From Brasilonema angustatum HA4187-MV1 (lineage in GTDB: Bacteria; Cyanobacteriota; Cyanobacteriia; Cyanobacteriales; Nostocaceae), in NCBI GenBank assembly GCA_019359695.1, contig JAHHGV010000003.1, positions 1 through 64,000 on the forward strand: DNA of 64,000 nt. Direction: 5' to 3'. The position numbers were made by a program, and so were the translations under genes. Below are positions 30,850 through 53,115 of the stretch, one piece after another (the first letter of the stretch is position 1; each line of letters begins with the position of its first letter). Under the pieces are notes generated by a model. The model saw only the letters and a program-made list of their open reading frames with translations, did no database searches and was not told where the DNA came from.

Positions 30850-31007
30850 GAAAGTCGGTTCTAATGGGGGTCAGCCATTAGAGGTAACGGGGAAAGTCCG
30901 GTGTAAATCCGGCGCTGTCCCGCAACTGTAAAGGAGATAAGTATCTCTCAGCCAGGATGCCCGCCGAAGTTAACTTGTTAGTCCTGCACGTCTGCGAGGT
31001 ACAGATG
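30850..31007 (+). promoter_or_regulatory. Cobalamin riboswitch 1
   Basis: The B12 aptamer core is clear: AGGTAACGGGGAAAGTCCGG, then AATCCGGCGCTGTCCCGCAA, and ATGCCCGCCGAAG before a P13-like hairpin TCTGCGAGGTACAGA at about 30990-31005. It precedes DUF1636 and metE on the + strand. Cobalamin binding is expected to lower expression of those genes. Confidence 0.95.
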
Positions 31008-31016
31008 AACAATTCC

Positions 31017-31127
31017 ATGAATGTTTTTACAAATTTATACAACCTGCCAGCTTCACGTTCTCATAGTGGCACAGATGCGTTCAAGATGATATCTTGCTAC
31101 AAAAGGCACGGATATACGATTCGTTGA
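31017..31127 (+). CDS. Possible leader ORF after riboswitch 1
   Basis: A 36-codon frame (MNVFTNLYNLPASRSH...) starting 10 nt after the aptamer. It shares the MN-x-x-T start with the leader frames at loci 2 and 3, but indels put the rest of the homologous DNA in another frame. Protein-level conservation is therefore not supported here. Confidence 0.25.
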   Translation: MNVFTNLYNLPASRSHSGTDAFKMISCYKRHGYTIR

Positions 31128-31321
31128 CGGAAAAAATTACGACTCTAGGTATAGCTCTCATTCGTACTAGTTTTTTCTAGGCGTAAATGTCTAGATCTGT
31201 TCTTGATAGTTAAGAATGTTTATCAATAGTTTGCTCACACAGTCAGCAAGGCTGGACTTTGGTGTTGGCAACACTGTGTGAGATTTGCGGTTTGAACTTC
31301 CTCCCATACACTTCAAAATCA

Positions 31322-31747
31322 ATGATCAACAAACAACATACTTTATTTGTTTGCACGACTTGTGCTAGCACCTGGCAAGACGGCAAGCGAGTTGGTGAAA
31401 GTGGTGGTCAACAACTACTACAGCAGCTTCAGGAACTTGGGCAAAACTGGGAGTTGCAAAATAATTTCCCAATTCAGGGAGTTGAATGCATGAGTGCTTG
31501 TAATCGATCTTGTGTCATTGCCTTTGCTGCCCAAGATAAATTAACCTATCTGTTTGGCGATTTACCAGTTGATAATAGCGCCGAAGCCATTTTGCAATGT
31601 GCCAGTCAATACTACGCTAAACCAGATGGTTCACTGCCTTGGTCAGAACGACCCCAAGCACTGAAAAAGGGGATTTTGGCAAAGATTCCACCACTTAATA
31701 AGTGGGCGAAATTAAACCTAACTTGTTGTTCATTGAGGACTGACTAA
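31322..31747 (+). CDS. DUF1636 metal-binding protein
   Basis: A 141-residue protein started at ATG 31322 (MINKQHTLFVCTTCASTWQDG); the open frame extends 21 codons upstream but not in a family-like way. Cys residues in CTTC and in ECMSACNRSC suggest a thioredoxin-like ferredoxin or metal site, followed by YLFGDLP. DUF1636 genes commonly neighbour cobW and cobN in cobalamin-synthesis loci. Here the gene lies directly behind a B12 riboswitch and before metE, supporting a B12 or cobalt-linked role. An inverted repeat CTCACACAGT/ACTGTGTGAG at 31234-31282 precedes it. Confidence 0.85.
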   Translation: MINKQHTLFVCTTCASTWQDGKRVGESGGQQLLQQLQELGQNWELQNNFPIQGVECMSACNRSCVIAFAAQDKLTYLFGDLPVDNSAEAILQCASQYYAKPDGSLPWSERPQALKKGILAKIPPLNKWAKLNLTCCSLRTD

Positions 31748-31771
31748 AAGTTCTCAGTTCCCAATCCCTAG

Positions 31772-31890
31772 AGCGCCGGTACATTAATCCCAAAAACCCG
31801 GTTTATTTGAGTTGAGCATACGAAATATCAAGTTTTTCGACAGAGAGAAACCGGGTTTTTTGCCTCCTTTTTGACTACTGTACCGGCGCT
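31772..31890. repeat. Nested inverted-repeat element between DUF1636 and metE
   Basis: AGCGCCGGTAC at 31772-31782 mirrors GTACCGGCGCT at 31880-31890. Inside, AAAACCCGGTTT near 31793 faces AAACCGGGTTTT near 31848. The element fills most of the 184-bp intergenic space and could fold into one long stem, which may affect read-through into metE. Confidence 0.7.
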
Positions 31891-31931
31891 GTAGTACCCA
31901 AATCATTAGTTTTCATTCATAAGAGAAACTC

Positions 31932-34184
31932 ATGCAGATTAAAACTTCAACATTAGGCTATCCCCGTATTGGTAAAAACCGGGAAGTCAAGAAATCACTA
32001 GAAGCCTTTTGGAGTGGAAAGATAGCAGCAGAATCGCTGTTAAAAACAGTAATAGAAGTTGAAGAAGCTAACTGGAAAACCCAGTTAAATGCAGGTATTG
32101 ATAAAATTGGAGTTGGAGATACCACACTTTATGACCATGTACTTGACTGGGCGTTTCGTTTTGGTTTAATTCCCGAACGCTTCCAACAGTTTTCCGGCTT
32201 AGAACGCTACTTTGTAATGGCACGAGGTCAAGAAGGAATTCCCGCTCTTGAAATGACCAAGTGGTTCGATACTAACTATCACTATCTGGTCCCTGAAATT
32301 GCCTCAGAAACCCTGTCAGCAGATTTCAACGACTTTTTAGAAACAGTCCAGCGTGCCCAAAATATATTAGGTAAAAGGGCAATACCCATTATACTTGGTC
32401 CCTGTACACTCCTGCGCTTAAGCCGACTGGAATTGAAGACTGACGAGGCGCTATCAAAGCTAATACCACTTTACATCAACCTACTCACAGAACTGAAAAA
32501 TCTGGGAGTAGACGAAGTGCAAATGCACGAACCTGCCTTAGTTTTGGGTGATGCCAATTCCTGGAAAAAACACTTCCAAACAGTTTATAACTCACTTGAT
32601 TCTGTAGAACTACCCTTACACCTAGTTACTTACTTTGATGACTTAGGGGAAACCTATCCTTGGGTGATAGAATTACCAGTCAGGGCAATTAGTTTGGACT
32701 TCACTCGCGGACGAAACTTAGAGTTAATCAAAACTTACGGTTTCCCTGAAGATAAGCGACTGGGATTAGGAATTATAGATGCCAGAAACATTTGGCAAAT
32801 TCGTCCAGAGAAACTTATTCCTGTATTGCAAGAAATTGTAGACAATTTACATGTCAAGTCTCTAGATATTCAGCCATCAGCTTCTTTGCAGTTTGTTCCC
32901 TACGATGCTCAACGAGAAAAACAACTACCATCAGCATTAAGAAATGTTTTAGGTTTTGCAGAACAGAAGCTCAAAGAAGTGGTGTTTGTGGCTCGAACAA
33001 TCATAGGAGACAATACCAAAACAGAGCAAGAATTAATTGAGTCAAGCTGGAGTCAATTCGAGCAGTTCAGTCCCGTCAATCACTCAATTCAAGAAAGAAT
33101 AAAAACTCTGAAGATTGATGATTTTCAGCGCTCCTTATCCTATGGATTGCGTCTTGATTCCCAAATTCATCTTCCTCTGTTCCCGACAACCACAATTGGC
33201 TCTTTTCCCCAAACTTCTGAAGTACGCCAACTCCGAGTCCGCTACAAACGGGGTGAATTGAGTAAAAAAGCATACCGAGACGAAATTGATGTTGAAATTG
33301 TCAAGAGTATTAAACTACAGGAGGAATTAGGGTTAGATGTTCTAGTTCATGGTGAATTTGAACGCACCGACATGGTGGAATTTTTTGGACAGCAGTTATC
33401 AGGCTTCGCTTTCACTGAAAATGGTTGGGTGCAAAGTTACGGTAGCCGTTATGTTCGTCCGCCAATTATTTACGGTGATGTGATTCGTACTGCGCCTATG
33501 ACAGTGCGTGAGTTTAAAGTAGCTCAATCATTGACTGAAAAACCTGTCAAAGGAATGTTGACAGGTCCTGTAACTATCTTAAATTGGTCTTACACCAGGA
33601 CGGATATTTCTCGTCAAGAACAAGCTTTTCAAATTGCTTTGGCGTTGCGGGATGAGGTAGCGGATTTGGAAGCTGCTGGTGCAAAAGTCATTCAAGTAGA
33701 TGAACCAGCGCTACGTGAGGGTTTACCTCTAAAGCCTCAACAGTGGAGTGAATATCTTTCTTGGGCTGTGGATGCATTTCGTTTGGCGACAGCAGTAGCC
33801 CAACCCCAAACTCAAATTCATACCCACATGTGCTACTGCGAATTTGGTGACATTATCAAGGATATTGAACGCTTAGATGCTGATGTTATTTCGATTGAAA
33901 ATAGTCGCAGCAATAATCAAACTTTGCGAGAAATAACAGAAGGTGGCTACTCACATCAAGTTGGTAATGGAGTTTATGACATCCATAGTCCCGTAGTCCC
34001 AACAACTGAACAGATTTTACAGCAATTGCGGACTGGAGTTGCTAATTTACCCGTAAAACAAATTTGGGTGAACCCAGATTGCGGTTTGAAAACTCGGCGT
34101 TGGGAAGAGGTGATTCCCTCAATGAAAAACATGGTAGAAGCCGCCAAAGTCTTGCGGGAGGAAGTTAACGCAACTCCGAGATAG
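31932..34184 (+). CDS. metE: Cobalamin-independent methionine synthase
   Basis: A 750-residue enzyme transferring a methyl group from 5-methyltetrahydrofolate triglutamate to homocysteine without B12. The N-terminal half starts TSTLGYPRIGKNREVKK. The C-terminal catalytic barrel has FPTTTIGSFPQT, HGEFERTDMVEFFG, and zinc ligands in IHTHMCYCEFGD and NPDCGLKTR. The normal length and intact motifs indicate function. It lies behind riboswitch 1, the classical arrangement in which B12 shuts off the B12-independent enzyme. A terminator follows at about 34293-34318. Confidence 0.97.
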   Translation: MQIKTSTLGYPRIGKNREVKKSLEAFWSGKIAAESLLKTVIEVEEANWKTQLNAGIDKIGVGDTTLYDHVLDWAFRFGLIPERFQQFSGLERYFVMARGQEGIPALEMTKWFDTNYHYLVPEIASETLSADFNDFLETVQRAQNILGKRAIPIILGPCTLLRLSRLELKTDEALSKLIPLYINLLTELKNLGVDEVQMHEPALVLGDANSWKKHFQTVYNSLDSVELPLHLVTYFDDLGETYPWVIELPVRAISLDFTRGRNLELIKTYGFPEDKRLGLGIIDARNIWQIRPEKLIPVLQEIVDNLHVKSLDIQPSASLQFVPYDAQREKQLPSALRNVLGFAEQKLKEVVFVARTIIGDNTKTEQELIESSWSQFEQFSPVNHSIQERIKTLKIDDFQRSLSYGLRLDSQIHLPLFPTTTIGSFPQTSEVRQLRVRYKRGELSKKAYRDEIDVEIVKSIKLQEELGLDVLVHGEFERTDMVEFFGQQLSGFAFTENGWVQSYGSRYVRPPIIYGDVIRTAPMTVREFKVAQSLTEKPVKGMLTGPVTILNWSYTRTDISRQEQAFQIALALRDEVADLEAAGAKVIQVDEPALREGLPLKPQQWSEYLSWAVDAFRLATAVAQPQTQIHTHMCYCEFGDIIKDIERLDADVISIENSRSNNQTLREITEGGYSHQVGNGVYDIHSPVVPTTEQILQQLRTGVANLPVKQIWVNPDCGLKTRRWEEVIPSMKNMVEAAKVLREEVNATPR

Positions 34185-34292
34185 CAGTAATAGCCTCAGA
34201 CTAAGGTCCAAGAGTGCTTTAAGACTTTTGCAAGAGGCTTATTGTGGAACCTAACAATAAAGCCTCATTATCTACACTATTCTGTGCGTTCT

Positions 34293-34318
34293 CCGCATTT
34301 GTGCGGTGCTTTTTGTTT
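34293..34318 (+). terminator. Intrinsic terminator after metE
   Basis: A CCGCA-TTTG-TGCGG stem at 34293-34306 is followed by TTTTTGTTTT. It separates metE from the DUF4346 gene, which is therefore probably its own unit or receives only read-through. Confidence 0.65.
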
Positions 34319-34330
34319 TGGAGTTAAAAA

Positions 34331-34717
34331 ATGATGATCACAACAGTAGAAACAATTACAGCAATTGACGACAAACTATCCAAGCGATTTTTAGAACTTG
34401 ACCCAGCAGGTTACTTTATCATCTATTTAGATCGGGGAGCAGGCTTAATCTGCGCGAAACATTTTACCAATGAAATTAATGAGCAAGGATTAGCGATCGA
34501 TCCAGAAACCGGAAAACCCATTCCTGCAACTGTCAAAGTGCAAAGACAAGCAACTACCCTGTTTACAGGAAGAACTGCCAAAGAAATTTGTATTCAACTG
34601 TTTGAGGAAACTAAACCCTGCCCAGTCAGCCGATTGGATCATGCGGCTTACTTGGGACGTGAGTTTATGCGAGCAGAATTGGCATTGGTGACAGGACAAG
34701 ACTACGTACAGGATTAA
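34331..34717 (+). CDS. DUF4346 family protein
   Basis: A 128-residue protein that I assign to the cyanobacterial DUF4346 family from the segments LDPAGYFIIYLDR, HFTNEINEQGLAIDPETGKPI, FTGRTAKEICIQLFEET and LDHAAYLGREFMRAE. This family is distantly linked to methyltransfer subunits of the tetrahydromethanopterin type, but no catalytic role is known. Its position right after metE hints at one-carbon or B12 metabolism. Start at ATG 34331, or the next codon. Confidence 0.7.
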   Translation: MMITTVETITAIDDKLSKRFLELDPAGYFIIYLDRGAGLICAKHFTNEINEQGLAIDPETGKPIPATVKVQRQATTLFTGRTAKEICIQLFEETKPCPVSRLDHAAYLGREFMRAELALVTGQDYVQD

Positions 34718-34755
34718 ATAGGCTTGTGATGATTTAACTATTTATTAGGTGGCGG

Positions 34756-35234
34756 TCAACTTGGAGTGACGTTTTGCCACAACTCGGCTGCAATAAACCT
34801 CGACAGATGCCCCACATTAGTTGTCGCAATTACAATATCTGGAACTCCAAGAGTCATGGCTTGAGCTACTAAAATCATGTCACCGTCAATCGTTTTGTCA
34901 CCTGCCGTCGGTTGCCCTTGCTGACGAGCGTGTGCCCAGAGTTGTGCAGCTTGGCGCATCGCAACCGTTCTAATCGGCAAATACTCAATCAACTTGGCTA
35001 AATCGTCTAGACGAGCGATGCCTTTTATTTTCAGGACTTACGCACTGTGCCAGTTGCGTAAGTCCTGATTTTGTTCGCTCGTAACAACTCACGACGAACC
35101 TCATAGTCCGCAATCTCTGGAATGAGAACGCGCCTCCCTGATGTGAGGTGAGTTTGGAGCCATTGGGCACAAGCAATACTTTCACCAGACAGCTTAGGAT
35201 TGGTGATTAGACCAAGTGGTCCTGCATCCAACAT
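34756..35234 (-). pseudogene. PIN-domain toxin gene split by a 36-bp palindrome
   Basis: From 35234 the gene reads MLDAGPLGLITNPK... to LLRAN, then enters the insertion at 35032-35067 and stops after 12 foreign codons. Removing the insertion and one copy of the ATTTT duplication restores one frame through KIKGIARLDDLAKLIEYLPI to the PIN C-terminal motifs GDMILVAQA and IATTNVGHLSRF, 145 residues in all. The antitoxin gene 12 bp upstream is intact. The toxin should be inactive unless the element is lost or the C-terminal half is translated separately. Confidence 0.85.
35032..35067. mobile_element. 36-bp palindromic insertion with 5-bp target duplication
   Basis: CAGGACTTACGCA at 35032-35044 is perfectly mirrored at 35055-35067 around a 10-nt loop. 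ATTTT flanks it on both sides (35027-35031 and 35068-35072). The arm matches the ends of the 180-bp element at 2269-2448, so it is either the smallest member of that family or a footprint of end-to-end joined element termini. Confidence 0.85.
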
Positions 35235-35245
35235 TATGACTCAGC

Positions 35246-35530
35246 TCACCAAGTTATACCCTTCTTCTCAAGCGGGAACAGCTTACGTTCAGAGAGCCGA
35301 TCCTCATCCAATGCACGAATTAAGTACTGACCTGTTTCTTGCTGCTCCTCAACATCCTCATCATCAATCCAGGACTGAACCAGATTAACCGCGTCAGCTT
35401 GCTTTTGCCTCAGCAGAATGGAGTTTGTCAAAAGTTGCAGTGTCACAGCTTCAACCGAAAGCCCTTGCTGTTTGGCTTCCTGCAATAGATATTGCTCTAA
35501 TTCTGGTGGGAGGTTAAGAGTTAGCGTCAT
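35246..35530 (-). CDS. Antitoxin of the broken PIN toxin
   Basis: A 94-residue protein starting MTLTLNLPPELEQYLLQEAKQQGLSVEAVTLQLL, a beta strand plus helices as in cyanobacterial VapB-like antitoxins of the ribbon-helix-helix kind. The acidic tail would bind the toxin. It ends 12 bp before the PIN pseudogene. Its ATG overlaps the stop of an upstream truncated frame (ATGA). It seems intact although its partner is broken. Confidence 0.75.
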   Translation of the reverse strand: MTLTLNLPPELEQYLLQEAKQQGLSVEAVTLQLLTNSILLRQKQADAVNLVQSWIDDEDVEEQQETGQYLIRALDEDRLSERKLFPLEKKGITW

Positions 35531-35682: not shown

Positions 35683-35786
35683 AGTCACCTAAGGACCAAG
35701 ATAAGCGGCGGCTAGTATCGCAAGGCGGAAGTCAAAAGTCAAAAGTATTATGGAATACGCTTTTTAGGGATTTTAAATGGTGAACC

Positions 35787-36000: not shown

Positions 36001-36029
36001 CCTATTTACGCCGATCTGTACTAGTAACC

Positions 36030-36455: not shown

Positions 36456-36464
36456 TTCTACCTC

Positions 36465-39759: not shown

Positions 39760-40818
39760 TTAGAAATCATCCCAACCTTCAACACTTGAGGACATGACGT
39801 AACTAGTTACACTTGCTTCAAAGAAGTTTGCCTTCGTGTTCCCTTCTTTCTTAGTATCTGAGAAACGTTCCAAGTGAGCATAGGGACTTTTCTTGTAGAT
39901 AGGTTCTGGAAATAATGGATCTAAACCGATCGCCTTCAGGCGAGTATTTGCCAGATATCTTGTGTACTGTTCTGTACTGTTTGCCGTAATGCCAAGAATA
40001 TCATCTCCGACAATATGCCCTGTCCACTTGCATTCATGCTCAACGGCGTTCGCAAACATTTCATAGATTTGTTCACGGCTGTGGGGGAAAATTTGCATCG
40101 CTTCTGGAATCAATTTTTGATACAGCCGCACATGAGAGAGTTCATCTCGGTTAATCATTCTAAAAATATCGGCACTCCCAGACATGAGCATCCGTGATGA
40201 CAGATTGTAGAAAAATATAAACCCGTTGTAGAAATATAATCCTTCCAACAAGTAATCTGCTAACAGTGAGACGAAATAATTCTCTGGTGTGGGGTTATCA
40301 ACATACTTTTGGTATAGTCTAGCAATAAATTCACATCGTTGTTTGAGAACGCGATCGCTCCGCCAAAAATCATAGACATGTGTACGGCGATCGCTCGGAA
40401 TCACCGTTTCAATAATGTATTGATAGGACTGATTGTGCATCGCCTCTTGCGAAATTTGTTCCGCCATACACAGCGCTATTTCTGGTGCGGTAACGCTGTT
40501 TTTGATGTGAGGCACATTGCAGGTTTGCACCGAATCGAGAAACGTGAGGTAGCTGAGGATGCCATCAAATGCACGCCGTTCTTTAGGGGTGAGATTGACG
40601 TAATCTGTTACGTCTTGAGTAATATCAATTTTTTCGGGAACCCAGAAGTTCTCACGCATTTGACGGTAGAGAGACACAGCCCACGAGTAGCGAACGTCGT
40701 TTAATTGCATTAAGTTAGTAGTCTCCCCAAACCATATCAAACGGTTTCCTGTATCATCACTCCCGTTCGGATTAAAAACGGGATTAATTGGCATTAATGA
40801 TTGTCTTGGTTGGTACAT
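39760..40818 (-). CDS. nrdB: Class I ribonucleotide reductase beta subunit
   Basis: About 352 residues from ATG 40818 (MYQPRQSLMPINPVFNP); a TTG 14 codons upstream is less likely. This subunit holds the diiron-tyrosyl radical cofactor. Ligand-type motifs are FLDSVQ, EAMHNQSY (Glu, His, then the radical Tyr four residues on), LLEGLYFY, and RDELSHVRLYQ. The radical Tyr is present, unlike in class Ic. It lies 122 bp after nrdA on the same strand, so an operon is likely. Confidence 0.92.
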   Translation of the reverse strand: MYQPRQSLMPINPVFNPNGSDDTGNRLIWFGETTNLMQLNDVRYSWAVSLYRQMRENFWVPEKIDITQDVTDYVNLTPKERRAFDGILSYLTFLDSVQTCNVPHIKNSVTAPEIALCMAEQISQEAMHNQSYQYIIETVIPSDRRTHVYDFWRSDRVLKQRCEFIARLYQKYVDNPTPENYFVSLLADYLLEGLYFYNGFIFFYNLSSRMLMSGSADIFRMINRDELSHVRLYQKLIPEAMQIFPHSREQIYEMFANAVEHECKWTGHIVGDDILGITANSTEQYTRYLANTRLKAIGLDPLFPEPIYKKSPYAHLERFSDTKKEGNTKANFFEASVTSYVMSSSVEGWDDF

Positions 40819-40939
40819 TTTAATTCTGTTTTGATTAGTTTTCACTTTTAATTTGGGCAATGGGCATTGGGCAAGGGGGAATGCCCATTGCCTATGCTTG
40901 ATAACTGATAACTGTTAAGTGTTTACTGATGACTGCTAT

Positions 40940-43243: not shown

Positions 43244-43573
43244 AGGAGAGGGGGTAGATGAATTGTAAAAAATAATTGCAAAAATGGGAAAGAATTGTTA
43301 ATTAGGTTAGGCAATGTGAAAAAATTGTCAGATTAATGTGATAAAACGCTGGTAACTCTAAAAAATTCACACTTCATTAAAATTTGCAATAATAATCCAA
43401 TAGCAACAACAGAGCAAGTTTTGGTAAAGAATGAAACTTGCTCCGATGAATAACGAATGCCAGTATAGATCGACTATTGATTTTTACGCAAGCAAACCAC
43501 CTAAAAGAAGGCGAGAGCGGCGGAGCTTCGTCTTTAAACCGCAGAGTGTCAAAGTTGTGTTAATATTCAAAAG
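43244..43573. other. Divergent control region of nrdA and riboswitch locus 2
   Basis: An AT-rich 330-bp gap. The last part, AGTTGTGTTAATATTCAAAA near 43550, is nearly identical to the sequence before riboswitch 3 (AGTTGTGTTAATATGCAAAA near 52833), so it probably holds the riboswitch promoter. No riboswitch faces nrdA. Confidence 0.5.
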
Positions 43574-43729
43574 AATCTCGGTTCTAGTGGGGAACAGCCA
43601 CTAGAGGTAACGGGGAAAGTCCGGTGTGAATCCGGCGCTGTCCCGCAGCTGTAATCAAGGCTTGTCTTGTGAGTCAGAACGCCCGCCGAAGTTAACTTGT
43701 AAATTTTGTAAATCTGCGAGGCACAGATC
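43574..43729 (+). promoter_or_regulatory. Cobalamin riboswitch 2
   Basis: The aptamer core AGAGGTAACGGGGAAAGTCC, GTGTGAATCCGGCGCTGTCC, CGCCCGCCGAAGTTAACTTG and the P13-like hairpin ATCTGCGAGGCACAGAT are all present. It is very close to riboswitch 3 throughout. Behind it lies a wrecked metE fragment and then the 155-residue unknown gene. Confidence 0.95.
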
Positions 43730-43738
43730 AGTATTTTT

Positions 43739-43834
43739 ATGAACATTTCTACAATTACTAGGCTTTACATTCTCATCGCTCCACATATCAAGACGCTACA
43801 GATTACAGCTTTTTATGAGACGGTAGGCGATTAA
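43739..43834 (+). CDS. Leader ORF of 31 codons after riboswitch 2
   Basis: Starts 10 nt after the aptamer and encodes MNISTITRLYILIAPHIKTL plus 11 residues. The equivalent at locus 3 is 31 codons as well, with 25 identical residues, eight synonymous and six non-synonymous codon differences, and no indel. That is suggestive of translation but may only reflect recent duplication. The only GAGG lies about 17 nt before the ATG, within the P13-like loop. Confidence 0.45.
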   Translation: MNISTITRLYILIAPHIKTLQITAFYETVGD

Positions 43835-43902
43835 TTTCCGGTATAAATTGCGTTTTTGGATGCAGCTATTGTGACAGGTATTCTCTGTGGGAGTATCGCT
43901 TT

Positions 43903-44393
43903 AAAATAGTCGCAGCAACAACTAAACGCTGTATTAACTAACAGATGGAAGTTATTCCAAACAGGTAGGAAATGGGGTGTATGACGAAGAAAGGGGTGTA
44001 GGGGAGCCAGTACTGCGGGAGGGTTTCCCGACAGAGGTATCTGGTGAGACCAGCGCTACAGGAGGGTTTCCCGACAGAGGCGACTGGCGAACCCGAAGGG
44101 CGTGAGAAGAGAGATTTTTCTTTGTGGTGCACCCCTGCCCCGGAACCAAAAGGGTACTCACCGCCCCCACCAATAACTCTTACCCCTTACACTTTTATAC
44201 CCTTACACCCTTACACCCTTACACCCGCGCGTTGTTGACGTACACAGTCCTGTTCCACTACCGAACAAATGCTTTCCCAATTACGCACGGGAATTGCTAA
44301 TTTACCCGTCCAATAAATTTGGGTAAATCCTGATTGTGGGTGATTCCATCAATTAAAAATATGGTTGATGCAGCCAAAATTTTACCAAAGTAA
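43903..44393 (+). pseudogene. metE: Remnant of a second metE, interrupted by a repeat
   Basis: Matches the 3' end of the intact metE at about 33897-34155. AAAATAGTCGCAGCAACAAC aligns with the NSRSNN region, the read-through GSY-KQVGNGVYD continues to 43985, and after a 251-bp insertion VHSPVP, TEQMLSQLRTGIANLPV and IWVNPDCG follow with stops and a deletion, ending near DAAKILPK. About 650 N-terminal codons are gone. It directly follows riboswitch 2 and its leader. Confidence 0.85.
43986..44236. mobile_element. 251-bp composite repeat inserted in the metE remnant
   Basis: The insertion is bounded by TGAC at 43982-43985 and again at 44236-44239, which can be joined to restore GTGTATGACGTACACAG of metE. 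It contains two GGAGGGTTTCCCGACAGAGG units and a run of TTACACCC heptamers at about 44185-44226. There is no coding content. Confidence 0.7.
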
Positions 44394-44472: not shown

Positions 44473-44940
44473 ATGAGTTATACTTCCGATGCTTTGGACT
44501 GGCAGCAAGGCTTGATTGCCACAAATTTGTTGGTGATTGGTTACAACGCCTGGGTAGGGTATTTGGGAGGCGATCGCGGTGTCATCGTTTGCAGCACCAA
44601 TTCCCCTGCAATTGGAGTGGTAGGGGAAACTTTCAAAGTTTCTTTTATACCACGTATTCGTATAGCTGCCTTCTTAAATGCTTGGTTAGCTGCTCCCGAC
44701 ACCGTAATTCTGCGCAATCACTTTATGAATGCTCATATCTTGGAAGCCGTGGATACTTACAATCCTACTACCGAAGTCTTGTTATTGCTGGAATCTTTTA
44801 ACCAAGCCACGTTCTTTTACCTAAAAAACCTACCCATCACCCCACCCCAATGCTACGAACAGGTCTGCAAAAGATGGACAGAATTTCAGCCCCAGCCCAA
44901 TTTTTCAGAAAATACAAATGCCAACCATCTTACTTACTGA
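44473..44940 (+). CDS. Hypothetical protein of a B12-riboswitch-linked family
   Basis: A 155-residue protein that I do not recognise. It starts at ATG 44473 behind a strong AAGGAGG. Features include LDWQQGLIATNLLVIGYNAWVGY, GDRGVIVCSTNSP, GETFKVSF and a C-terminal FFYLKNLPITPPQCYEQVC. There is no signal peptide or clear membrane helix, and the alternating strands suggest a compact alpha/beta fold. A broken paralogue lies at 57084-57401 behind riboswitch locus 3, so the family seems tied to B12-controlled modules. Function unknown. Confidence 0.75.
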   Translation: MSYTSDALDWQQGLIATNLLVIGYNAWVGYLGGDRGVIVCSTNSPAIGVVGETFKVSFIPRIRIAAFLNAWLAAPDTVILRNHFMNAHILEAVDTYNPTTEVLLLLESFNQATFFYLKNLPITPPQCYEQVCKRWTEFQPQPNFSENTNANHLTY

Positions 44941-45680: not shown

Positions 45681-46682
45681 ATGTCAACTTTATTATATTT
45701 TGTAATTGGTTTTCTTCTGCTTTTGGTGATTGGAATTGCGGGTTATCTCCTAAGTGCCCGTAAGTATCAATCCTCAGACACAGTCGCCAATTCCTACGAT
45801 CAATGGACTCTTGACGGCATCCTAGAGTTTTATTGGGGGGAACACATTCACCTCGGTCACTATGGTTCGCCGCCACGACGAAAGGATTTTCTGGCTGCTA
45901 AATCTGACTTTGTACATGAAATGGTTAAATGGGGTGGTTTAGATAAATTACCCCTTGGTACTACCGTCTTAGATGTTGGGTGTGGCATTGGGGGCAGCAG
46001 CCGGATTTTAGCGCGAGATTATGGGTTTGCCGTCACAGGGATTACGATCAGCCCTATTCAGGTGAAGCGTGCCCAGGAGTTAACGCCCCAAGGGCTAAAC
46101 GCCCAGTTTGCAGTCGATGATGCGATGGCGTTGTCGTTTCCAGATGCCAGTTTTGATGTGGTCTGGTCGATTGAAGCAGGTCCTCACATGCCCGATAAAG
46201 CCGTTTTTGCGCTTGAATTAATGCGGGTGCTAAAGCCCGGTGGAATATTGGTTGTAGCTGACTGGAATCAGAAGGATGACCGCCAAAAACCTCTAAATTT
46301 CTGGGAAAAACCAGTCATGCGACAACTCCTCGATCAGTGGTCTCATCCAGCTTTTTCCAGTATTGAAGGTTTTGCCGAGCTTTTGGCTGCGACGGGATTA
46401 GTTGAGGGGGAAGTGATTACGGCAGACTGGACAAAACAAACGCTTCCTTCTTGGTTAGATTCGATTTGGCAAGGGGTGATTCGACCAAGCGGATTTCTGC
46501 GTTTTGGACTGTCTGGTTTTATCAAGTCTGTGCGCGAGGTGCCGACGTTGTTGCTGATGCGTTTGGCGTTTGGTGCAGGGCTATGTCGATTTGGAATGTT
46601 CCGCGCTATGCGGGCAAACTCAGGCACAGAATTGAAAGACCAAAACTTTGCCAACCAAACTCCCTCAAACTTGGTTAGGTAG
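45681..46682 (+). CDS. 2-methyl-6-phytyl/solanyl-1,4-benzoquinone methyltransferase (Sll0418-type)
   Basis: A 333-residue SAM-dependent methyltransferase in plastoquinone and tocopherol synthesis. From memory it aligns over its length with Synechocystis Sll0418. An N-terminal membrane helix at about 5-25 is followed by QSSDTVANSYDQWTLDGILEFYWGEHIHLGHYG. The SAM motif is VLDVGCGIGGSSRILA near 93-108, with DVVWSIEAGPHMPDK and GGILVVADWNQ. It should act at the thylakoid or inner-envelope-like membrane. Monocistronic. Confidence 0.93.
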   Translation: MSTLLYFVIGFLLLLVIGIAGYLLSARKYQSSDTVANSYDQWTLDGILEFYWGEHIHLGHYGSPPRRKDFLAAKSDFVHEMVKWGGLDKLPLGTTVLDVGCGIGGSSRILARDYGFAVTGITISPIQVKRAQELTPQGLNAQFAVDDAMALSFPDASFDVVWSIEAGPHMPDKAVFALELMRVLKPGGILVVADWNQKDDRQKPLNFWEKPVMRQLLDQWSHPAFSSIEGFAELLAATGLVEGEVITADWTKQTLPSWLDSIWQGVIRPSGFLRFGLSGFIKSVREVPTLLLMRLAFGAGLCRFGMFRAMRANSGTELKDQNFANQTPSNLVR

Positions 46683-46945
46683 CGATGCCTGCGGCGGGCT
46701 GCGCCTACGCATGATGACCAATGCGTGAGTTTCAAGCAATGACCCCATCGCCAAATCGATCTTTGATGAACTGCGATGCAGTTATTGTCGGCTACATTTC
46801 GGGTTTAATAGCGTTTCATGATCGGGCCTGATACTGATATTTTTTTGATTTTAGGTGATTAATTTAACATAAATTTCTGTTTCGCAACCAAATACGAACG
46901 AAGAAACCGGGTTTCACAGCAGATGGTGCGTAAGTCCTATTCAAT
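46683..46945. other. Intergenic region with repeat ends
   Basis: Holds AAACCGGGTTTCAC near 46903 and GTGCGTAAGTCCTA near 46927. The latter is the end sequence of the TAGGACTTAC element family (2269-2448, 35032-35067), as a solo end. No terminator is clear for either convergent gene. Confidence 0.5.
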
Positions 46946-48091
46946 TCAAAGCTTCTGTGAGAGTTCTATGACACTATCGCGTACACTAGGTTTTCTTCGA
47001 TAGCGATCGCGCCACATCACAAAACCAGTGATGAATAGAACGAACGGTGCATATCCAATAAATACATAGAGAATGCGAGTAGGCAATGCTCCAAAAGTAC
47101 CATAATGGAGGGGAGTAAAAGAATTGAGAATGCGCGAGCCTAAACACGGTTTGAGAGCATTGTCCACTTGCAAAACCTTGCCGTTATACTGGTCGAGGTA
47201 GACATAGCTGGTTCCATAATCGCCTATTTCTTGAGGAAATTTGTAGCGAATCATCAAAGCGCTGTCTGGTTTTTGAGCAAAATAAACGCTTCTGAGTTCT
47301 GCACCAGGTAATTGAGCTTGAGCGGTCTGAAGTTGCTCGCTAAGTTTCAGGGGAGACTGAGTGGGGCTCGGTTGAGAAACAACTTCTGGCTTCACACTAA
47401 AGGTGATTGCCCGAATCACAGGCTCACTAAACTCACTAAAATTCCAGCAAAAACCTGTGAAAAATGTGAAAAAAAGAAACACAGCTGCAATCGCACCAGC
47501 AACTTTGTGAATATCAAAGTTCATTCGCTTGGGATGAGCATCAAGCTTGATTTTGAAGCCTGCAATTAGTTTACGCCAACCAGGCCAGAGAAACATTCCT
47601 GTGATCGTCAGAATGCACACCAGTAAACCAACAGTGCCAACAATTTTGTATCCAATGTCGCCTGCCAAGAGACTGTAGTGGAGTTCATAAATAATTTTGT
47701 AAAAGCGCTCTACAGGATTGGGATTGAGACTATTACCGAGAATTGCTCCTGTATAAGGATGAACGTAATTTTCAATCCAATCATTTTCCTTGCTTGCATA
47801 AATGACATTAAATGGTTCATCTAGTTTTGTCGGCACATAAACTCGCTGAAGCTTGGCATCTGGCTGGCTGGCATAGCTGTTTTTCACCGTTTTCAGAATC
47901 ACCTCAATCGGCAGCATTTCCCCTTTAGGAGTGATAGTTCCAATTTGGTAATGCCTTTGAATGGCAATAATTTCAGATTGGAACACCAGCAGGCTACCAG
48001 TTAAACCAACAATAACCGCAATCAGTCCAACACCTAACCCAATGTAGCGGTGTAAAGTAAATACGAAGTTACGCAGAGTTTTGAAAGTCAT
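46946..48091 (-). CDS. PepSY-associated membrane protein of siderophore uptake
   Basis: A 381-residue inner-membrane protein with four main helices (about 12-35, 150-175, 200-225, 345-365) and two periplasmic PepSY-like segments. The HRYIGLGVG start and LHYSLLAGDIGYKIVG and HKVAGAIAA signatures with membrane His fit iron-regulated PepSY_TM proteins thought to reduce ferric siderophores. It lies 25 bp after the TonB-dependent receptor gene, so an operon is likely. Confidence 0.88.
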   Translation of the reverse strand: MTFKTLRNFVFTLHRYIGLGVGLIAVIVGLTGSLLVFQSEIIAIQRHYQIGTITPKGEMLPIEVILKTVKNSYASQPDAKLQRVYVPTKLDEPFNVIYASKENDWIENYVHPYTGAILGNSLNPNPVERFYKIIYELHYSLLAGDIGYKIVGTVGLLVCILTITGMFLWPGWRKLIAGFKIKLDAHPKRMNFDIHKVAGAIAAVFLFFTFFTGFCWNFSEFSEPVIRAITFSVKPEVVSQPSPTQSPLKLSEQLQTAQAQLPGAELRSVYFAQKPDSALMIRYKFPQEIGDYGTSYVYLDQYNGKVLQVDNALKPCLGSRILNSFTPLHYGTFGALPTRILYVFIGYAPFVLFITGFVMWRDRYRRKPSVRDSVIELSQKL

Positions 48092-48116
48092 GGTAGATAT
48101 TCCTGCTAAATAAAGA

Positions 48117-50867
48117 TCAAAACTCCACTGAAATCGTGCCCAACACAGTCAACGGTGCTTGAGGGAAGACTAAGTAGCCATTCGTGTCGTAATATTTGAC
48201 ATCGAAGATATTCTTAAAGTTGAGTGCAGCTCGCCAATTATCATGTTTGTAGGAGATTGCAGCATCAGTTCTCACATAAGAAGGGAGAGTAAACGGATCG
48301 CTCTGATTGGCAATGCGCGAGCCAACAAAAAATAACCCTGCACTAAACTGTAATCCTTGCAAGTCACCTTTTTGAATTTCATAGGTTGTCCATAGACTTG
48401 CACCGTGGTATGCAGTATTTTGCAAACGCTGACCTTTGATTGTAGGGTCATTATCTTCGCTAACAAATGCATCATTCAAATATCCAGAAGCAATAATCTT
48501 CCAACCTGGTAAAATTTCTCCTGCCACATCCAGTTCGATACCTCGACTTTTCACTTCTCCCACCGCGATTACAGAGTTAATATCGTTAGGGTCTTGAGTG
48601 GGTATGTTTGTTTTGGTAATGTCATAGGCTGCTAGCGTTGCCGAAAGCCGTCGGTCAAAAAGCTCAGATTTTATACCAATTTCGTACTGTGTACCGCGAG
48701 ATGGTTCGAGTGCTTCCCCACTAGCAGTTCTAGAATTGTTGGGAACAAAGGAACGGCTGTAACTGGCATAGAGCGAAATCGGCTCGATGGGTTGATAGAC
48801 TAATCCCACACGGGGTGAAAAAGCACCATCGTTAAACTCAGACCTAGTAGTGTTTCCATCTCCCCTTGTTACACTATTAACGCTATCAACAAAATCGTAT
48901 CTGCCACCAACCAGTAACTTCAGATTAGATAGTAGGGCTACCTGGTCTTGCAAATAAATACCTATTGTATCTATCCTATTATCGTATAGACCTGATAGTC
49001 TGATGTTCGTAGGACGGGCACCATAGATAGGATTGAAAATATCTAGTGAGGCGATATCACCGGCGAAATTGTAATCAACATCTGTGTTGCGACTCAACTC
49101 CAAACCCAGCAGGAGTTGATGGGCAATTGAACCTGTGTTGAACTTACCAATCAAATCAGTTTGCCAGGAGTAGTCTTCAATGGGGCGATCGCGATCTCCT
49201 CCGTATTCGCGCTGTAAACTACGACCATCTGCTTCAAATGTGCCACCGCCGATGTTGGCATAAGCATCGTTGTTAAGCGACGATTGGATAGAAACACCGC
49301 TTCGCAATTGTAAACTGTCACTAAAGCGGTGATCCAGTGTCAAAGTGCCCCGTTGGTAGTCCACATTATTAAAATCGCTAGGCTCTCCCAAATTGCGACT
49401 GATGGGAAGAGTCAGGAACACAGGACTAGTCGGTGGAAAACCCCGATCAAATCCCCCACGTCGTCTGCCATACTCGTATTCAAAATTGAGGATTGTGTTT
49501 TCGCTGGGCTTATAGGTGATCACAGGGGACACAGAGAAAATATCGTAATCATTAAAATCTCGGAAACTGCCGGAGTTCTCATAGGCAACATTCAAGCGAT
49601 AGAGTAATTTTTTGTCGTTAGTGAGTGGTCCAGAAAAGTCTACAGAACCGCGATAGAAACTAAAGCTACCTGCGGTAAATTCTGCTGCGTAGTAGGGATT
49701 GCTCAAGGGTTGCTTGGTGACATAATTGACGACACCACCTGGTTCAAATTGACCGTATAGTACAGAAGCCGGACCTTTGAGAACTTCAACGCGCTCTACA
49801 TTGGCACCATAGCTGAAAATGTTGGTGGTTTTGAAGCCATTTCTCAGAATGTTGTAGCTACTGAATCCTCGAATCGTGTAGTCATCAAAGATGCCACCAA
49901 AGCCCGCTAACGGTGATACTCCGGACACATTTCGGGTAGCATCGATAATCCGCGTGATTTGCTGATCTTTGATCACTGTTTGCGGAATCGCTTGAATTGA
50001 CTGAGGAATGTCGCGTGTGTCCGTATCGGTTCGAGTGGCAGATCTGGTATTGGAGACACGATAACCATCTTGCTCACCCGTCACCACTAGTTCAATCGGT
50101 TCGTCACCAGAAGCTGATGGTTGACTTGGCTGGGTTTGATTCCCTGGTTGCTGTGATTCCTGCCCCTGCCCGAGGTTCGGCGAGGGTTTTGGGGTGGGGT
50201 TTTGCCGTTGTTGTTGGGCAATCGAAGCTGCAGTTGACACGTTGAAGATCAAACCTTCTTTTGGACTGTCATACAATTCCACAACAGGTGGACTCGCTTC
50301 ACCTATCACCGTGACTCGAATAGTATTGGCATCAAAGTTTGTTACAGTTATCTCGGTTACACCCGCAATTGGCTTTTGTGAGCGGAATGTAAACGGTCTG
50401 TCACCTGGTAAACGCAGTTGAGCATTGGGAATGTCAACGATAAAGATATTACTATTTACTTGCGTCCGGTTCTGCAGTTGCAACGTAGCAGCAAGTGAAG
50501 TTTGTAAAACCACCTCCACACCCTTATTAGTGGGATTTGCTTTCACGAAGCTGACTTGCACGAATGACTGATTTTTGATTTGAGCCAGCCATTCTTTAAC
50601 TGTTGTGGCTGGGCGCTCTAGCTCTTGCACACGAGGAACTGTTATAACTTTGTTTCCCTGCTGAATTTTCGCACCTGTTGTTTGGGCTCTGGACTGCAAT
50701 AATCGTTGACTTGGATGAGTTGCAGTCAAATTTATCTGCTTTTGGCTACGAATTCCTTGATTGTTTGTTACATTGTCGCTACGACTCATTTCCTGTGCCA
50801 ATGCAGTCTGTGAGAAAAACACCGACACCAAAGTAGTCATCAACAACGGCAGTTTCAGATTCCGCAT
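48117..50867 (-). CDS. TonB-dependent siderophore receptor with AMIN domain
   Basis: A 916-residue outer-membrane receptor. Signal peptide 1-24 (MRNLKLPLLM...TALA), an AMIN domain at about 85-210 that may tether it to peptidoglycan, and a Pro/Gln linker. A TonB-box-like IELVVTGEQ lies near 262. The plug has IPQSIQAIPQTVIKDQ, GVSPLAGFGGIFDDYTIRGF and GPASVLYGQFEPGGVVNYVTKQP. A 22-strand barrel ends in Phe (ISVEF). FhuA/schizokinen-type receptors share this layout. It is followed by the PepSY gene and preceded by an AraC regulator. Confidence 0.93.
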   Translation of the reverse strand: MRNLKLPLLMTTLVSVFFSQTALAQEMSRSDNVTNNQGIRSQKQINLTATHPSQRLLQSRAQTTGAKIQQGNKVITVPRVQELERPATTVKEWLAQIKNQSFVQVSFVKANPTNKGVEVVLQTSLAATLQLQNRTQVNSNIFIVDIPNAQLRLPGDRPFTFRSQKPIAGVTEITVTNFDANTIRVTVIGEASPPVVELYDSPKEGLIFNVSTAASIAQQQRQNPTPKPSPNLGQGQESQQPGNQTQPSQPSASGDEPIELVVTGEQDGYRVSNTRSATRTDTDTRDIPQSIQAIPQTVIKDQQITRIIDATRNVSGVSPLAGFGGIFDDYTIRGFSSYNILRNGFKTTNIFSYGANVERVEVLKGPASVLYGQFEPGGVVNYVTKQPLSNPYYAAEFTAGSFSFYRGSVDFSGPLTNDKKLLYRLNVAYENSGSFRDFNDYDIFSVSPVITYKPSENTILNFEYEYGRRRGGFDRGFPPTSPVFLTLPISRNLGEPSDFNNVDYQRGTLTLDHRFSDSLQLRSGVSIQSSLNNDAYANIGGGTFEADGRSLQREYGGDRDRPIEDYSWQTDLIGKFNTGSIAHQLLLGLELSRNTDVDYNFAGDIASLDIFNPIYGARPTNIRLSGLYDNRIDTIGIYLQDQVALLSNLKLLVGGRYDFVDSVNSVTRGDGNTTRSEFNDGAFSPRVGLVYQPIEPISLYASYSRSFVPNNSRTASGEALEPSRGTQYEIGIKSELFDRRLSATLAAYDITKTNIPTQDPNDINSVIAVGEVKSRGIELDVAGEILPGWKIIASGYLNDAFVSEDNDPTIKGQRLQNTAYHGASLWTTYEIQKGDLQGLQFSAGLFFVGSRIANQSDPFTLPSYVRTDAAISYKHDNWRAALNFKNIFDVKYYDTNGYLVFPQAPLTVLGTISVEF

Positions 50868-51057
50868 ATTTTCCTCACATCAAGATAAATTCAGCCAATT
50901 AGCAACAGGGCAAATATTTTTTATCTGTTAGTCGAGAGATTTTCTCAAATTACTCTTGATAGTACACTAAGGCATTTCAATGCTAAAAATGGCTCCAAGA
51001 CGGAAAATTTTCGCGCCCTAACCGGAATTTTTGGGTAGCTTCATATAGTAATCGTGT
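50868..51057 (-). promoter_or_regulatory. Promoter region of the receptor gene with a 21-bp direct repeat
   Basis: GGCTCCAAGACGGAAAATTTT at 50991-51011 is followed head to tail by a related unit, CGCGCCCTAACCGGAATTTTT, at 51012-51032; about 12 of 21 positions agree. A two-turn spacing suits an AraC-type activator, and the AraC gene ends just upstream. A Fur box was not identified with confidence. Confidence 0.4.
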
Positions 51058-52035
51058 TTAAATATTCTGCTGCATTTGATACGCTTTTGGATTGACACCG
51101 TATTTCTTTTTAAATGCACTAGCAAAGCGACTGCGGTTTGCATAGCCAACTATTTGAGCAACTTGTTCAATTTTCATTTGCCCTGACAGCAGTAATTGCC
51201 TAGCTTGCTCCATGCGATAGTCGTGTAAGTAACCAAATACTGTAGTCCCAAAAATTTGACGGAATCCACGTTTGAGAGTGCATTCGTTAATACCTACCTG
51301 TTTAGCTAAATCGATTAACGAAGGTGGATTACTTATATTCCGTAACAGAACTTCTTTGGCGTGATGGATAGAATCAATTTCCTGAAGCCGTAGCAGTTTT
51401 TCTGTTGGCGCTATTATTTGATCTGCTAGCTTAAGGGAAACCAATTCTAGGACTTTGCTCTCCAGATACATTTTGCGCGTTAGTCCCTGATAAGGACAAT
51501 GAAGAATTTGCTGGAGCGCGACTTGTTTGGCTGGGGTAATTAGATTAGGACGTAGATTAAAATATTCTGGTACACCTGCGATCGCCTTTTCCAAATCTTG
51601 CGGTACTTGTTCTCCATAACTTTCGATCAACGTCCTCAGCGTTTCTGGCTCAATTATCAAACTCACCCATCTGAGATTACCTGCTCCATCAATGCTGTTA
51701 TTCGACTGTGGATATACACCACCAAAAATATAGTCTTCTCCTGACTTTGTTGCTTGTCCATCAAAATCTTGCCCTGATCCAGCTAAAATAAATCCAAATT
51801 CTAAACTGTCTTGGTGATAGGCATGAGTGATCCACTTGATTGACTGCGGTAAATAAGTTTCGAGAATTTCGATGATAATGCCTTCACGAAGCGGTATCCA
51901 GCGATAATAGCCTTCACCGAGTTCTTTAGGATATCGATAAAGATAATCTTCTGGATGGGTTGGATCGATTATGGATTCTGGATTTGCTGCTTTCCTCAAA
52001 TCCCAAAAATCATAAAACGTGATGTTAATTGTCAT
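51058..52035 (-). CDS. AraC-family regulator of siderophore uptake
   Basis: About 325 residues from ATG 52035 (MTINITFYDFWDL); a TTG 11 codons upstream is less likely. The N-terminal ligand-binding part is cyanobacterial PchR-like. The C-terminal double helix-turn-helix covers about 225-325 (NPPSLIDLAKQVGINECTLKRGFRQIFG, QIVGYANRSRFASAFKKKYGVNP). Such regulators sense ferric siderophores and activate the adjacent receptor. It lies 190 bp upstream of the receptor on the same strand. Confidence 0.88.
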   Translation of the reverse strand: MTINITFYDFWDLRKAANPESIIDPTHPEDYLYRYPKELGEGYYRWIPLREGIIIEILETYLPQSIKWITHAYHQDSLEFGFILAGSGQDFDGQATKSGEDYIFGGVYPQSNNSIDGAGNLRWVSLIIEPETLRTLIESYGEQVPQDLEKAIAGVPEYFNLRPNLITPAKQVALQQILHCPYQGLTRKMYLESKVLELVSLKLADQIIAPTEKLLRLQEIDSIHHAKEVLLRNISNPPSLIDLAKQVGINECTLKRGFRQIFGTTVFGYLHDYRMEQARQLLLSGQMKIEQVAQIVGYANRSRFASAFKKKYGVNPKAYQMQQNI

Positions 52036-52303
52036 TGGTGTTGTACTGTGCGATACGCGCAGCGTCAAGCCAAGGGCTTATTGCGGTTGTTTAGATATAT
52101 TACATCTTCATTCAATGCTACACAGCATCGTAAAGCAAACCGCAATTATCTAACGCTGGAGAGAGCAAAATCTTGACAAACAATGATAATTTGGCTATCA
52201 AGCCAATAAGTAGCACAAATATTCAGATAATTTGTGTATGGTAGGTACTGTAGTGGCAATTAAGACTGTATCGTGATCAATGCTCTTACTTGGAGTTACA
52301 TCT

Positions 52304-52768
52304 ATGGGCGAAGCCAAACGACGTAAACAACAAGATCCAGCATGGGGTTTGAGCTTTGAGGCTTGGGGCAAACTATTCCAGCCTAATATTAAAACTTACC
52401 TTACCCAATCTGGTTTAGAAGTCTGCGATTTTCAAGACCTATATAAAGATATGATGTGGTATCATCACCGCATCAACTTAGCCGTGGAAAGACGTGCTGA
52501 AGGGTTATCAATATTTGCCGTCAAAAACTATGTCTGCCACGCTCTTGATACTCGTTTGAAGTGCTTTCTAATTATAGAAAAATGTGATCGCTACGCGGAT
52601 TCACAATACCGAAAATGGATGACCGCTGCTTGGCTTGACTTGAGTAGAGAAAAAGACGGAATTTATATTTTTGGTCGTCATACTCCTGAGTTTGTGGGAT
52701 GGGTCTACCATCACGAACCAACGCTCAACGGTCTTTATAGATTTGCAACTCCACACCCAGAACTTTAG
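52304..52768 (+). CDS. Hypothetical protein with MGEAKRRK start
   Basis: About 154 residues from ATG 52304, which follows GGAG by about 9 nt; the frame opens eight codons earlier. The MGEAKRRKQQDP start is common among cyanobacterial small proteins. The body has MMWYHHRINLAVERRAEGLS and ends in FVGWVYHHEPTLNGLYRF. Mostly helical, no catalytic signature recognised, no obvious partner. Riboswitch 3 begins about 90 bp later. Confidence 0.6.
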   Translation: MGEAKRRKQQDPAWGLSFEAWGKLFQPNIKTYLTQSGLEVCDFQDLYKDMMWYHHRINLAVERRAEGLSIFAVKNYVCHALDTRLKCFLIIEKCDRYADSQYRKWMTAAWLDLSREKDGIYIFGRHTPEFVGWVYHHEPTLNGLYRFATPHPEL

Positions 52769-52854
52769 CACCGCAACTTCCTTGGGGCGATCGCTTCATT
52801 AATAACTTGGAGTAACTTACCCAAACAAATCATAGTTGTGTTAATATGCAAAAT

Positions 52855-53010
52855 AATCTCGGTTCTAGTGGGGAACAGCCACTAGAGGTAACGGGGAAAG
52901 TCCGGTGTAAGTCCGGCGCTGTCCCGCAGCTGTAATCAAGGCTTGCCTTGTGAGTCAGAATGCCCGCCAAAGTTGACTTGTAAATTTTGTACATCTGCGA
53001 GGTACAGATA
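52855..53010 (+). promoter_or_regulatory. Cobalamin riboswitch 3
   Basis: A near-identical copy of riboswitch 2: AGAGGTAACGGGGAAAGTCC, GTGTAAGTCCGGCGCTGTCC, TGCCCGCCAAAGTTGACTTG, and the P13-like hairpin ATCTGCGAGGTACAGAT. Two A-for-G changes lie in the last block. It is followed by the leader frame, a membrane micro-ORF and cobW. Confidence 0.95.
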
Positions 53011-53019
53011 AGTATTTTT

Positions 53020-53115
53020 ATGAATATTTTTACAACTACTAGACTTTACATTCTCATAGCCCCACATATAAAGACGCTACAGGTTACGACTTTCTATGAG
53101 ATAGTAGGTGGTTAA
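53020..53115 (+). CDS. Leader ORF of 31 codons after riboswitch 3
   Basis: MNIFTTTRLYILIAPHIKTL plus 11 residues, starting about 10 nt after the aptamer. It keeps the same frame and length as the locus 2 frame (25 of 31 residues identical). Function unknown. It may be a regulatory leader peptide or just conserved leader RNA. Confidence 0.45.
   Translation: MNIFTTTRLYILIAPHIKTLQVTTFYEIVGG

Follow-up and report, generated by a model that had tools for sequence, protein, structure and literature searches.

How can a riboswitch act on genes that begin hundreds of nucleotides behind it, and how did three such elements come to stand within 22 kb of one cyanobacterial genome? Both questions are raised by a stretch of 64,000 nucleotides from Brasilonema angustatum HA4187-MV1 (GenBank assembly GCA_019359695.1, contig JAHHGV010000003.1, positions 1 to 64,000 of the forward strand), in the following called the window, in which three cobalamin (B12) riboswitches of the family RF00174 precede different sets of genes. 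The answer that we consider probable, judging from comparative sequence analysis, is that the three loci are reshuffled remnants of B12-repressed Nostocales operons whose riboswitches would gate the translation of a short leader open reading frame (ORF), from which the signal would then be relayed to the downstream genes.

The three aptamers, which a preceding sequence-only reading had placed on the plus strand at 30850, 43574 and 52855, were all recovered by cmscan with Rfam 15, where they account for all RNA-family matches in the window. All are on the plus strand, score above the RF00174 gathering score of 31.5 bits and span the model from position 1 to 189, such that no copy failed the covariance-model check. 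Each is followed by a hairpin with the motif GAGG in its loop and then by a short reading frame:

30839..30982, plus strand: cobalamin riboswitch aptamer 1 (RF00174, 58.8 bits)
30990..31006, plus strand: hairpin after aptamer 1, GAGG in loop, overlapping the start codon ATG 31005-31007
31005..31127, plus strand: leader ORF 1, 40 codons and stop
43562..43704, plus strand: cobalamin riboswitch aptamer 2 (RF00174, 63.2 bits)
43712..43728, plus strand: hairpin after aptamer 2, GAGG in loop
43739..43834, plus strand: leader ORF 2, 31 codons and stop, class A (classes are described below)
52843..52985, plus strand: cobalamin riboswitch aptamer 3 (RF00174, 60.0 bits)
52993..53009, plus strand: hairpin after aptamer 3, GAGG in loop
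53020..53115, plus strand: leader ORF 3, 31 codons and stop, class A

In all three copies, it is thus a frame of 40, 31 and 31 codons, respectively, and not an enzyme gene that follows the hairpin. We surveyed this arrangement in 101 loci extracted from the 139 RF00174 matches of a 59-genome survey described below (the rest are mostly low-scoring, and G016, which is among the 101, lies below the cut-off). A hairpin like ATCTGCGAGGYACAGAT was found after the aptamer at 80 of the 101 loci, and at 76 of these 80 a start codon is located at the 3' arm of the hairpin or not more than 13 nt from it. The frames opened at these 76 loci are of gene length in 34 cases (DUF1636, TonB/BtuB-like proteins and others) and short leaders, defined as frames of fewer than 80 codons, in the remaining 42. 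Leaders of 20–50 codons make up 90% of the 42 as compared to 28% (maximum 43%) in 200 dinucleotide shuffles, and leaders of fewer than 20 codons occur three times as compared to a shuffle mean of 28.3 (minimum 22). A second set came from named contigs, where at least 116 loci fitted a search pattern; 65 of these were dropped because a simple aptamer pattern detected no aptamer and 51 were kept, among them 36 leaders. None of these 36, taken from the matches listed, is shorter than 20 codons (shuffle mean 24.0, minimum 14). The search pattern demanded an RTG start, and the conservation of the start codon can therefore not be judged on this set.

Filtering the 78 leaders of both sets (the second again from the matches listed) to less than 60% identity left 36 non-redundant sequences, which were compared with 500 shuffles. 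Three of them are shorter than 20 codons (mean 23.4, minimum 12), 30 have 20–50 codons (shuffle mean 10.0, maximum 19), and the other two reading frames run into a stop ahead of codon 20 in 32 and 27 sequences, respectively. A sequence model covering the hairpin together with the leader has matches in 77 of the 217 family genomes surveyed and in 26 of 56 genera.

Of the 112 matches of this model, 85 were extracted; 83 could be classed and two were left unclassed. In class C (38 rows, 27 with exactly 31 codons), which is associated with metE, btuB and DUF1636 operons, the start codon lies inside the hairpin; eight MVYY-type rows from methyltransferase operons, termed class B, are included here. 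In class A (45 rows, 37 with exactly 31 codons), found mostly in methyltransferase and cobW operons, the ATG follows 11–13 nt later. Seven of the 45 class A rows carry an indel of 1 nt between hairpin and ATG; these rows are related and so represent fewer than seven events. Start and stop of class A both lie about four codons later than in class C with the length of 31 codons kept, a single event that is no more than suggestive. Compared with the N-terminal extension of directly controlled DUF1636 proteins, 12 of 28 class C leaders beat all of 20 shuffles, as did 7 of 45 class A leaders, a mere hint that class C leaders may derive from this extension. Inspection by eye revealed a CTAGTTTTTCGCT-like block within an inverted repeat after the leader stop in many class C rows (e.g., loci L184, L188 and L212), yet RNAalifold gave no consensus pair for the post-leader spacers. 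A TCTGCG motif before the DUF1636 start, also seen by eye, recurs in many rows of the same class.

What exactly is constrained in these leaders? Several observations weigh against a translated leader. Ratios of non-synonymous to synonymous polymorphism (pN/pS), calculated after filtering at 97% identity (29, 7 and 19 rows for classes A, B and C, the latter two restricted to rows of exactly 31 codons), amount to 1.01 in class A, 0.62 in class B and 0.67 in class C, with 143, 70 and 8 of 200 column shuffles, respectively, as low. Stop avoidance is at best marginal in class A (0 stops against an expectation of 2.85, with 272 of 5000 permutations giving a count as low), and no such signal is present in class B (0 versus 0.76) or in class C (2 versus 2.56, rows from G000 and G102 excluded). 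Class A leaders, including those of window copies 2 and 3, start 12 nt past the start-codon position in the hairpin and 17 nt from the GAGG, which is a long spacing. The rows are mutually related, and several of those with 31 codons share their descent. Finally, three of the 42 leaders are very short (7, 17 and 19 codons) and four of the 80 hairpins have no start nearby. In one of the three short cases, G048_C36, a DUF1636 frame starts 11 nt further on, as judged by eye.

Strong conservation of the leader peptide is rejected by the pN/pS and stop-avoidance results. Low pN/pS (0.32, 1 of 300 as low) was obtained for a 20-codon segment compared between classes A and B that had been picked for its protein similarity. 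In the leader, frame 0 is open while frame 1 closes early; inspection of an alignment by eye revealed mostly non-synonymous changes for leader 1 within its own clade. A role as a conserved RNA structure was likewise rejected, as no conserved fold was found beyond the hairpin in class A (29 rows) or class C (27 rows). The consensus energy of class A, hairpin included, is −1.8 and equals that of shuffled columns (−2.0), and the value for class B (8 rows, −16.9 versus −14.1 ± 3.6) is not distinct either. An alternative is that the leader is never translated, that the conserved stretch acts as RNA or as a spacer and that the open frame has been inherited by chance. A pN/pS near 1 in class A and the weak stop avoidance agree with this proposal; it is at odds with the hairpin being the sole conserved structure in classes A and C and with a length that is constrained even among leaders less than 60% identical, and we hold it to be unlikely. 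Our reading is that the passage of ribosomes over a certain length may be under selection and that the peptide is not.

The proposed sequence of events comprises ligand binding, loop contact, translation and relay. With cobalamin bound, the aptamer loop L5 would contact the hairpin loop and hide the ribosome site of the leader, which would then stay untranslated. When B12 is scarce, ribosomes would translate the leader, and their passage would keep the message intact or open the downstream genes; message stability, coupled transcription or the opening of a downstream structure could each serve as the relay. The L5 segment GCGCTGTCCCGC is present in all three copies and, by eye, could pair with the hairpin loop CGAGGYA at about six of seven positions when G-U pairs are included. 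Such pairing would match what we take to be the known loop–loop contact of cobalamin riboswitches, the hairpin presumably being the one called P13. An L5–L13 kissing loop is named for the cobalamin riboswitch in the part of the report on Mycobacterium tuberculosis that was available (PMC11260477).

In having aptamers above the cut-off and a Shine–Dalgarno-like GAGG in the hairpin loop that could pair with L5, the window copies resemble the translational type of RF00174. They differ in that the start region at the hairpin serves a short leader ORF and not the regulated enzyme. It could be argued that they are ordinary direct translational riboswitches all the same, in which long-range pairing would control the enzyme genes' own ribosome sites and the leader would be incidental, and the 34 of 76 loci that open a gene-length frame right at the hairpin fit this proposal. 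The downstream starts in the window, in contrast, lie 194 nt (copy 1), 638 nt (copy 2, to the gene U155) and 420 nt (copy 3) beyond the leader stops, and we regard direct control as quite improbable for these loci.

A related case is known from M. tuberculosis, where, according to the available part of the report, upstream ORFs (uORFs) adjoining B12 riboswitches undergo translation and are of functional importance, and expression of PPE2 needs translation of the uORF (PMC11260477). The ppe2 and metE riboswitches of that organism share with our loci the short ORF upstream of the regulated gene (PMC11260477, same part). The window ORFs, moreover, start at the expression-platform hairpin. They differ from the mycobacterial type in that their stops are not near the gene starts, as the above gaps document, which is unlike the placement associated with reinitiation, in that leaders of comparable length occur across numerous operons, and in the matter of the termination factor Rho, for which no match over the cut-off was found in this genome (TIGR00767, best score 22.3 bits versus 509). 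To our knowledge, cyanobacteria in general are without Rho.

A second point of comparison is the riboswitch-alr4027-btuB2-btuFCD operon of Anabaena sp. PCC 7120, which resembles several class C loci in combining a B12 riboswitch, a gene for a 'putative metal-binding protein' and btuB (PMC10878165, as far as the article was available); the metal-binding protein is probably DUF1636. In the same part of the article, transcript of this operon is given as about 100-fold higher in the absence of cobalt; no leader ORF is mentioned, and the term 'open reading frame' is absent from the main text (PMC10878165). Among open-licence full-text literature, judged by titles and the beginnings of abstracts, none of the papers listed dealt with leader ORFs at B12 riboswitches of cyanobacteria. 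The combination of riboswitch and uORF is already known; the recurrent length and the spread over cyanobacterial B12 operons look new.

Extending the gated leader beyond the window, we tentatively propose, with confidence a little short of even, that about half of the cyanobacterial B12 riboswitches of this type may act via a translated leader that is selected for length (mode 31 codons) and not for its peptide, and that would form a relay platform common to metE, btuB, cobW and methyltransferase operons. If the leaders are translated, a widespread class of cyanobacterial riboswitches signals via the passage of ribosomes and not by covering the start of a gene. This could explain how a 'translational' riboswitch alters transcript levels about 100-fold without Rho, as in the Anabaena case (PMC10878165, part available), and it would have consequences for the design of reporter fusions with such riboswitches.

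The second question, how the three loci arose, leads to the genes behind the leaders:

31322..31747, plus strand: DUF1636 gene, likely start ATG 31322 (listed ORF start TTG 31259; PF07845, 1e-46)
31932..34184, plus strand: metE, B12-independent methionine synthase, intact (TIGR01371, 950 bits; NF003556, 986 bits)
34331..34717, plus strand: DUF4346 (PterinBD) gene (PF14251, 9e-31)
39760..43243, minus strand: nrdB and nrdA for class I ribonucleotide reductase, adjacent to module 2 and divergently oriented (TIGR02506, NF007184, PF00268)
43896..44340, plus strand: metE C-terminal debris, main pieces 43896-43985 and 44257-44339 (sequence similarity)
44473..44940, plus strand: U155, gene for 155 residues, no Pfam family, predicted CcmS-like fold (structure prediction)
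45681..46682, plus strand: MT333, S-adenosylmethionine (SAM) methyltransferase (family match; only close copy in the genome)
46763..53460, no strand: stretch of about 6.7 kb that separates the methyltransferase tail from the DUF1636 stub; the corresponding joint in G003, G014 and G020 lacks it
53288..53389, plus strand: methyltransferase relic of G001 type, N- and C-terminal ends with the middle deleted (sequence match)
about 53461..53538, plus strand: DUF1636 start region (stub), directly 5' of cobW (sequence match)
53536..54594, plus strand: cobW GTPase (TIGR02475, 483 bits)
57072..57400, plus strand: U155-type gene remnant, ends approximate (sequence match)

The recurrence of fragments that the sequence-only reading had pointed out, i.e., metE debris, the DUF1636 start region and a remnant of the gene for 155 residues, was thus borne out. 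Its proposal that one module was duplicated and then partitioned holds in part: duplication with reciprocal loss is supported by deletion scars, and a single module duplicated once is not what we found. Operons 2 and 3 would stem from a pair of diverged operons of the order aptamer-leader-methyltransferase-cobW, each of which lost what the other retained, and these losses would have left each surviving gene with a riboswitch. Module 2 retains metE debris, the gene for 155 residues and an intact, diverged methyltransferase that is not directly followed by cobW; module 3 retains cobW, the DUF1636 stub and both ends of another, likewise diverged methyltransferase. In G003, G014 and G020, the DUF1636 stub lies behind the methyltransferase, from whose end the start of cobW is about 135–170 nt away (the cobW match is limited to the first 20 residues in G014 and to the first 34 in G020). 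More generally, the gene-order comparison favours a split, as 9 of the 85 leader loci that were extracted have the start of cobW not more than 400 nt from the end of the methyltransferase (gaps of 37–192 nt); at five of these nine, the cobW match covers at least 342 residues. In the window, homology to the methyltransferase tail extends to about 46762, and the stub follows from about 53461, some 6.7 kb further on. The intervening DNA holds genes for a PepSY protein, a TonB receptor and an AraC regulator, an ORF of 162 residues, riboswitch 3 with its leader and the methyltransferase relic.

The scar in module 3 can be read from two matches. Positions 52822-53348 match the riboswitch, leader and methyltransferase start of the G001 operon (566 nt, 80% identity), and positions 53355-53390 match the C-terminal end of the G001 methyltransferase (36 nt, 89%), which is itself 75–76% identical to MT333. 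As the match jumps from the start of the gene to its end, the methyltransferase of module 3, located 5' of cobW, was deleted internally. By these matches, module 3 is a G001-type operon with an internally deleted methyltransferase, and module 2 kept a different one. Debris of the metE C-terminus, as in module 2, follows copy-2-type leaders at 7 of the 45 loci of class A; these come from two genera, so that the event looks older than the genus. An eighth locus, in G102, has a whole metE behind a class A leader. Other families exhibit the orders riboswitch-DUF1636-metE-U155 (G037) and riboswitch-metE-U155 (G043), so that metE debris and U155 of module 2 are likely remains of such an operon. On this reading, the locus documents how a duplicated riboswitch operon was split, and the scars of the deletions are still legible.

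Trees were built of the aptamer-leader region. Among 37 rows, copy 1 and its counterparts from the same genus are united in one clade (100/100), copy 2 joins G001, G002 and G034 (89/68), and copy 3 of the window pairs with that of G004 (100/98) and joins G014, G020 and G028 (96/83). With 58 rows, copy 2 joins G001 and G002 (88/56) and copy 3 is part of an unresolved fork. Single duplication of one module is ruled against: copy 1 belongs to a separate clade, and copies 2 and 3 need not be sisters. Forcing copies 2 and 3 together (5 rows) costs 1.6 log units and is neither supported nor rejected (p-AU 0.425). One clade of riboswitches before cobW was rejected (p-AU 0.00016) for nine rows with cobW as the first gene match, two of which are cobW fragments. 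Both constraint groups were named after inspection of the 58-row tree.

Near-identity of copies 2 and 3 from promoter to leader, as originally described, applies to the aptamer (135 of 143 positions identical) and to hairpin plus leader (106 of 123), as compared to 115 of 144 and 84 of 138 between copies 1 and 2. Upstream, only the nearest 13 bases agree (12 of 13); farther up, identity drops to background (13 of 60). Since the shared block begins about 13 nt 5' of the aptamers, a whole common promoter is not demonstrated. Positions 43549-43848 and 52830-53129 form an ungapped repeat with 89% identity over 300 nt, which could be taken as the trace of a recent in-place duplication of one control region within the genus, followed by decay of the genes. 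The failure of the tree test to reject a common clade is compatible with that history, although copy 2 groups with G001 and G002 in the best trees, apart from copy 3 (support is modest), G003 contains copy 2 without copy 3, and the relic in module 3 is of G001 type and not of module 2 type. Taken together, a recent duplication appears improbable to us. Somewhat less doubtful, albeit still rather unlikely, is a lateral acquisition of module 3 with riboswitch and methyltransferase relic, perhaps along with the siderophore genes, that displaced the original cobW control region. The 6.7 kb are present at two of four readable same-genus joints (the window and G004, not G003 or G001), and riboswitches before cobW do not form one clade, as would fit this scenario; stub and cobW start, on the other hand, match G003 and G004 at 91–95%, whereby cobW itself looks native. 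Apart from the relic and riboswitch 3, the 6.7 kb carry on the minus strand (46946-52068) the PepSY protein, a TonB receptor of siderophore type with an AMIN domain and the AraC regulator.

Clustering of B12 riboswitches had been called unusual, a statement that did not withstand comparison. In a survey of 59 genomes (our own, six of the same genus, 28 of the same family and 24 of the same order), 11 including our own have at least two RF00174 matches above the cut-off within 25 kb, and at least two leader matches within 20 kb occur in 20 of 217 genomes of the family (both counted by hand). Clustering is consequently a trait of the group and no oddity of the B. angustatum genome. In G058 (contig C413, L045, about 10143-10477), two tandem aptamers of 58.3 and 41.9 bits only 4 nt apart precede DUF1636 and cobW. 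The B. angustatum genome (8.5 Mb, 98 contigs) contains five RF00174 matches in total, three in the window and one each on contigs C89 and C61 (the L057/L058 pair); on C61 the hairpin opens a frame with similarity to TonB receptors, and the riboswitch on C89 is without the hairpin motif.

Operon 1 (DUF1636-metE-DUF4346) is intact. A metH domain match elsewhere in the genome (134 bits, frame of 1184 residues, one TAA inside the matched stretch) makes metE plausibly a classical B12-independent backup for methionine synthesis. The DUF1636 start region at 31322 recurs among relatives; DUF1636 has been assigned by modelling to the thioredoxin-like [2Fe-2S] ferredoxins (PMC4520260, according to the part available). 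Upstream of module 2, nrdBA groups B12-independent enzymes together, albeit on the opposite strand, and it adjoins B12 modules, whole or in part, also in G003, G004, G028, G102, G169, G175 and G159.

MT333 has its next-best match in its own genome at 36% identity, and at E ≤ 1e-90 its type occurs in 15 of 30 genomes (own included) with exactly one match each. We assume that it resembles the Synechocystis MPBQ/MSBQ methyltransferase Sll0418, an enzyme of tocopherol and plastoquinone formation. In this genome, the sole methyltransferase of this type is preceded by a B12 riboswitch; if the presumed likeness to Sll0418 is correct, B12 control of such an enzyme is odd.

U155 belongs to a two-branch family with 60 distinct members in the extracted loci, many near B12 riboswitches, which are its gene context there. 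Its structural model (mean pLDDT 77, pTM 0.70) has the carboxysome chaperone CcmS (9iur_A) as best Foldseek match (E 7.3e-6, probability score 1.00, TM 0.50/0.59). The likeness is confined to the predicted fold, as a profile search gave no significant sequence match to CcmS (best E 0.45, to Slr1911). A TnpB-type gene (OrfB_IS605) is located at 57840-59075, in the vicinity of the decayed copy of U155.

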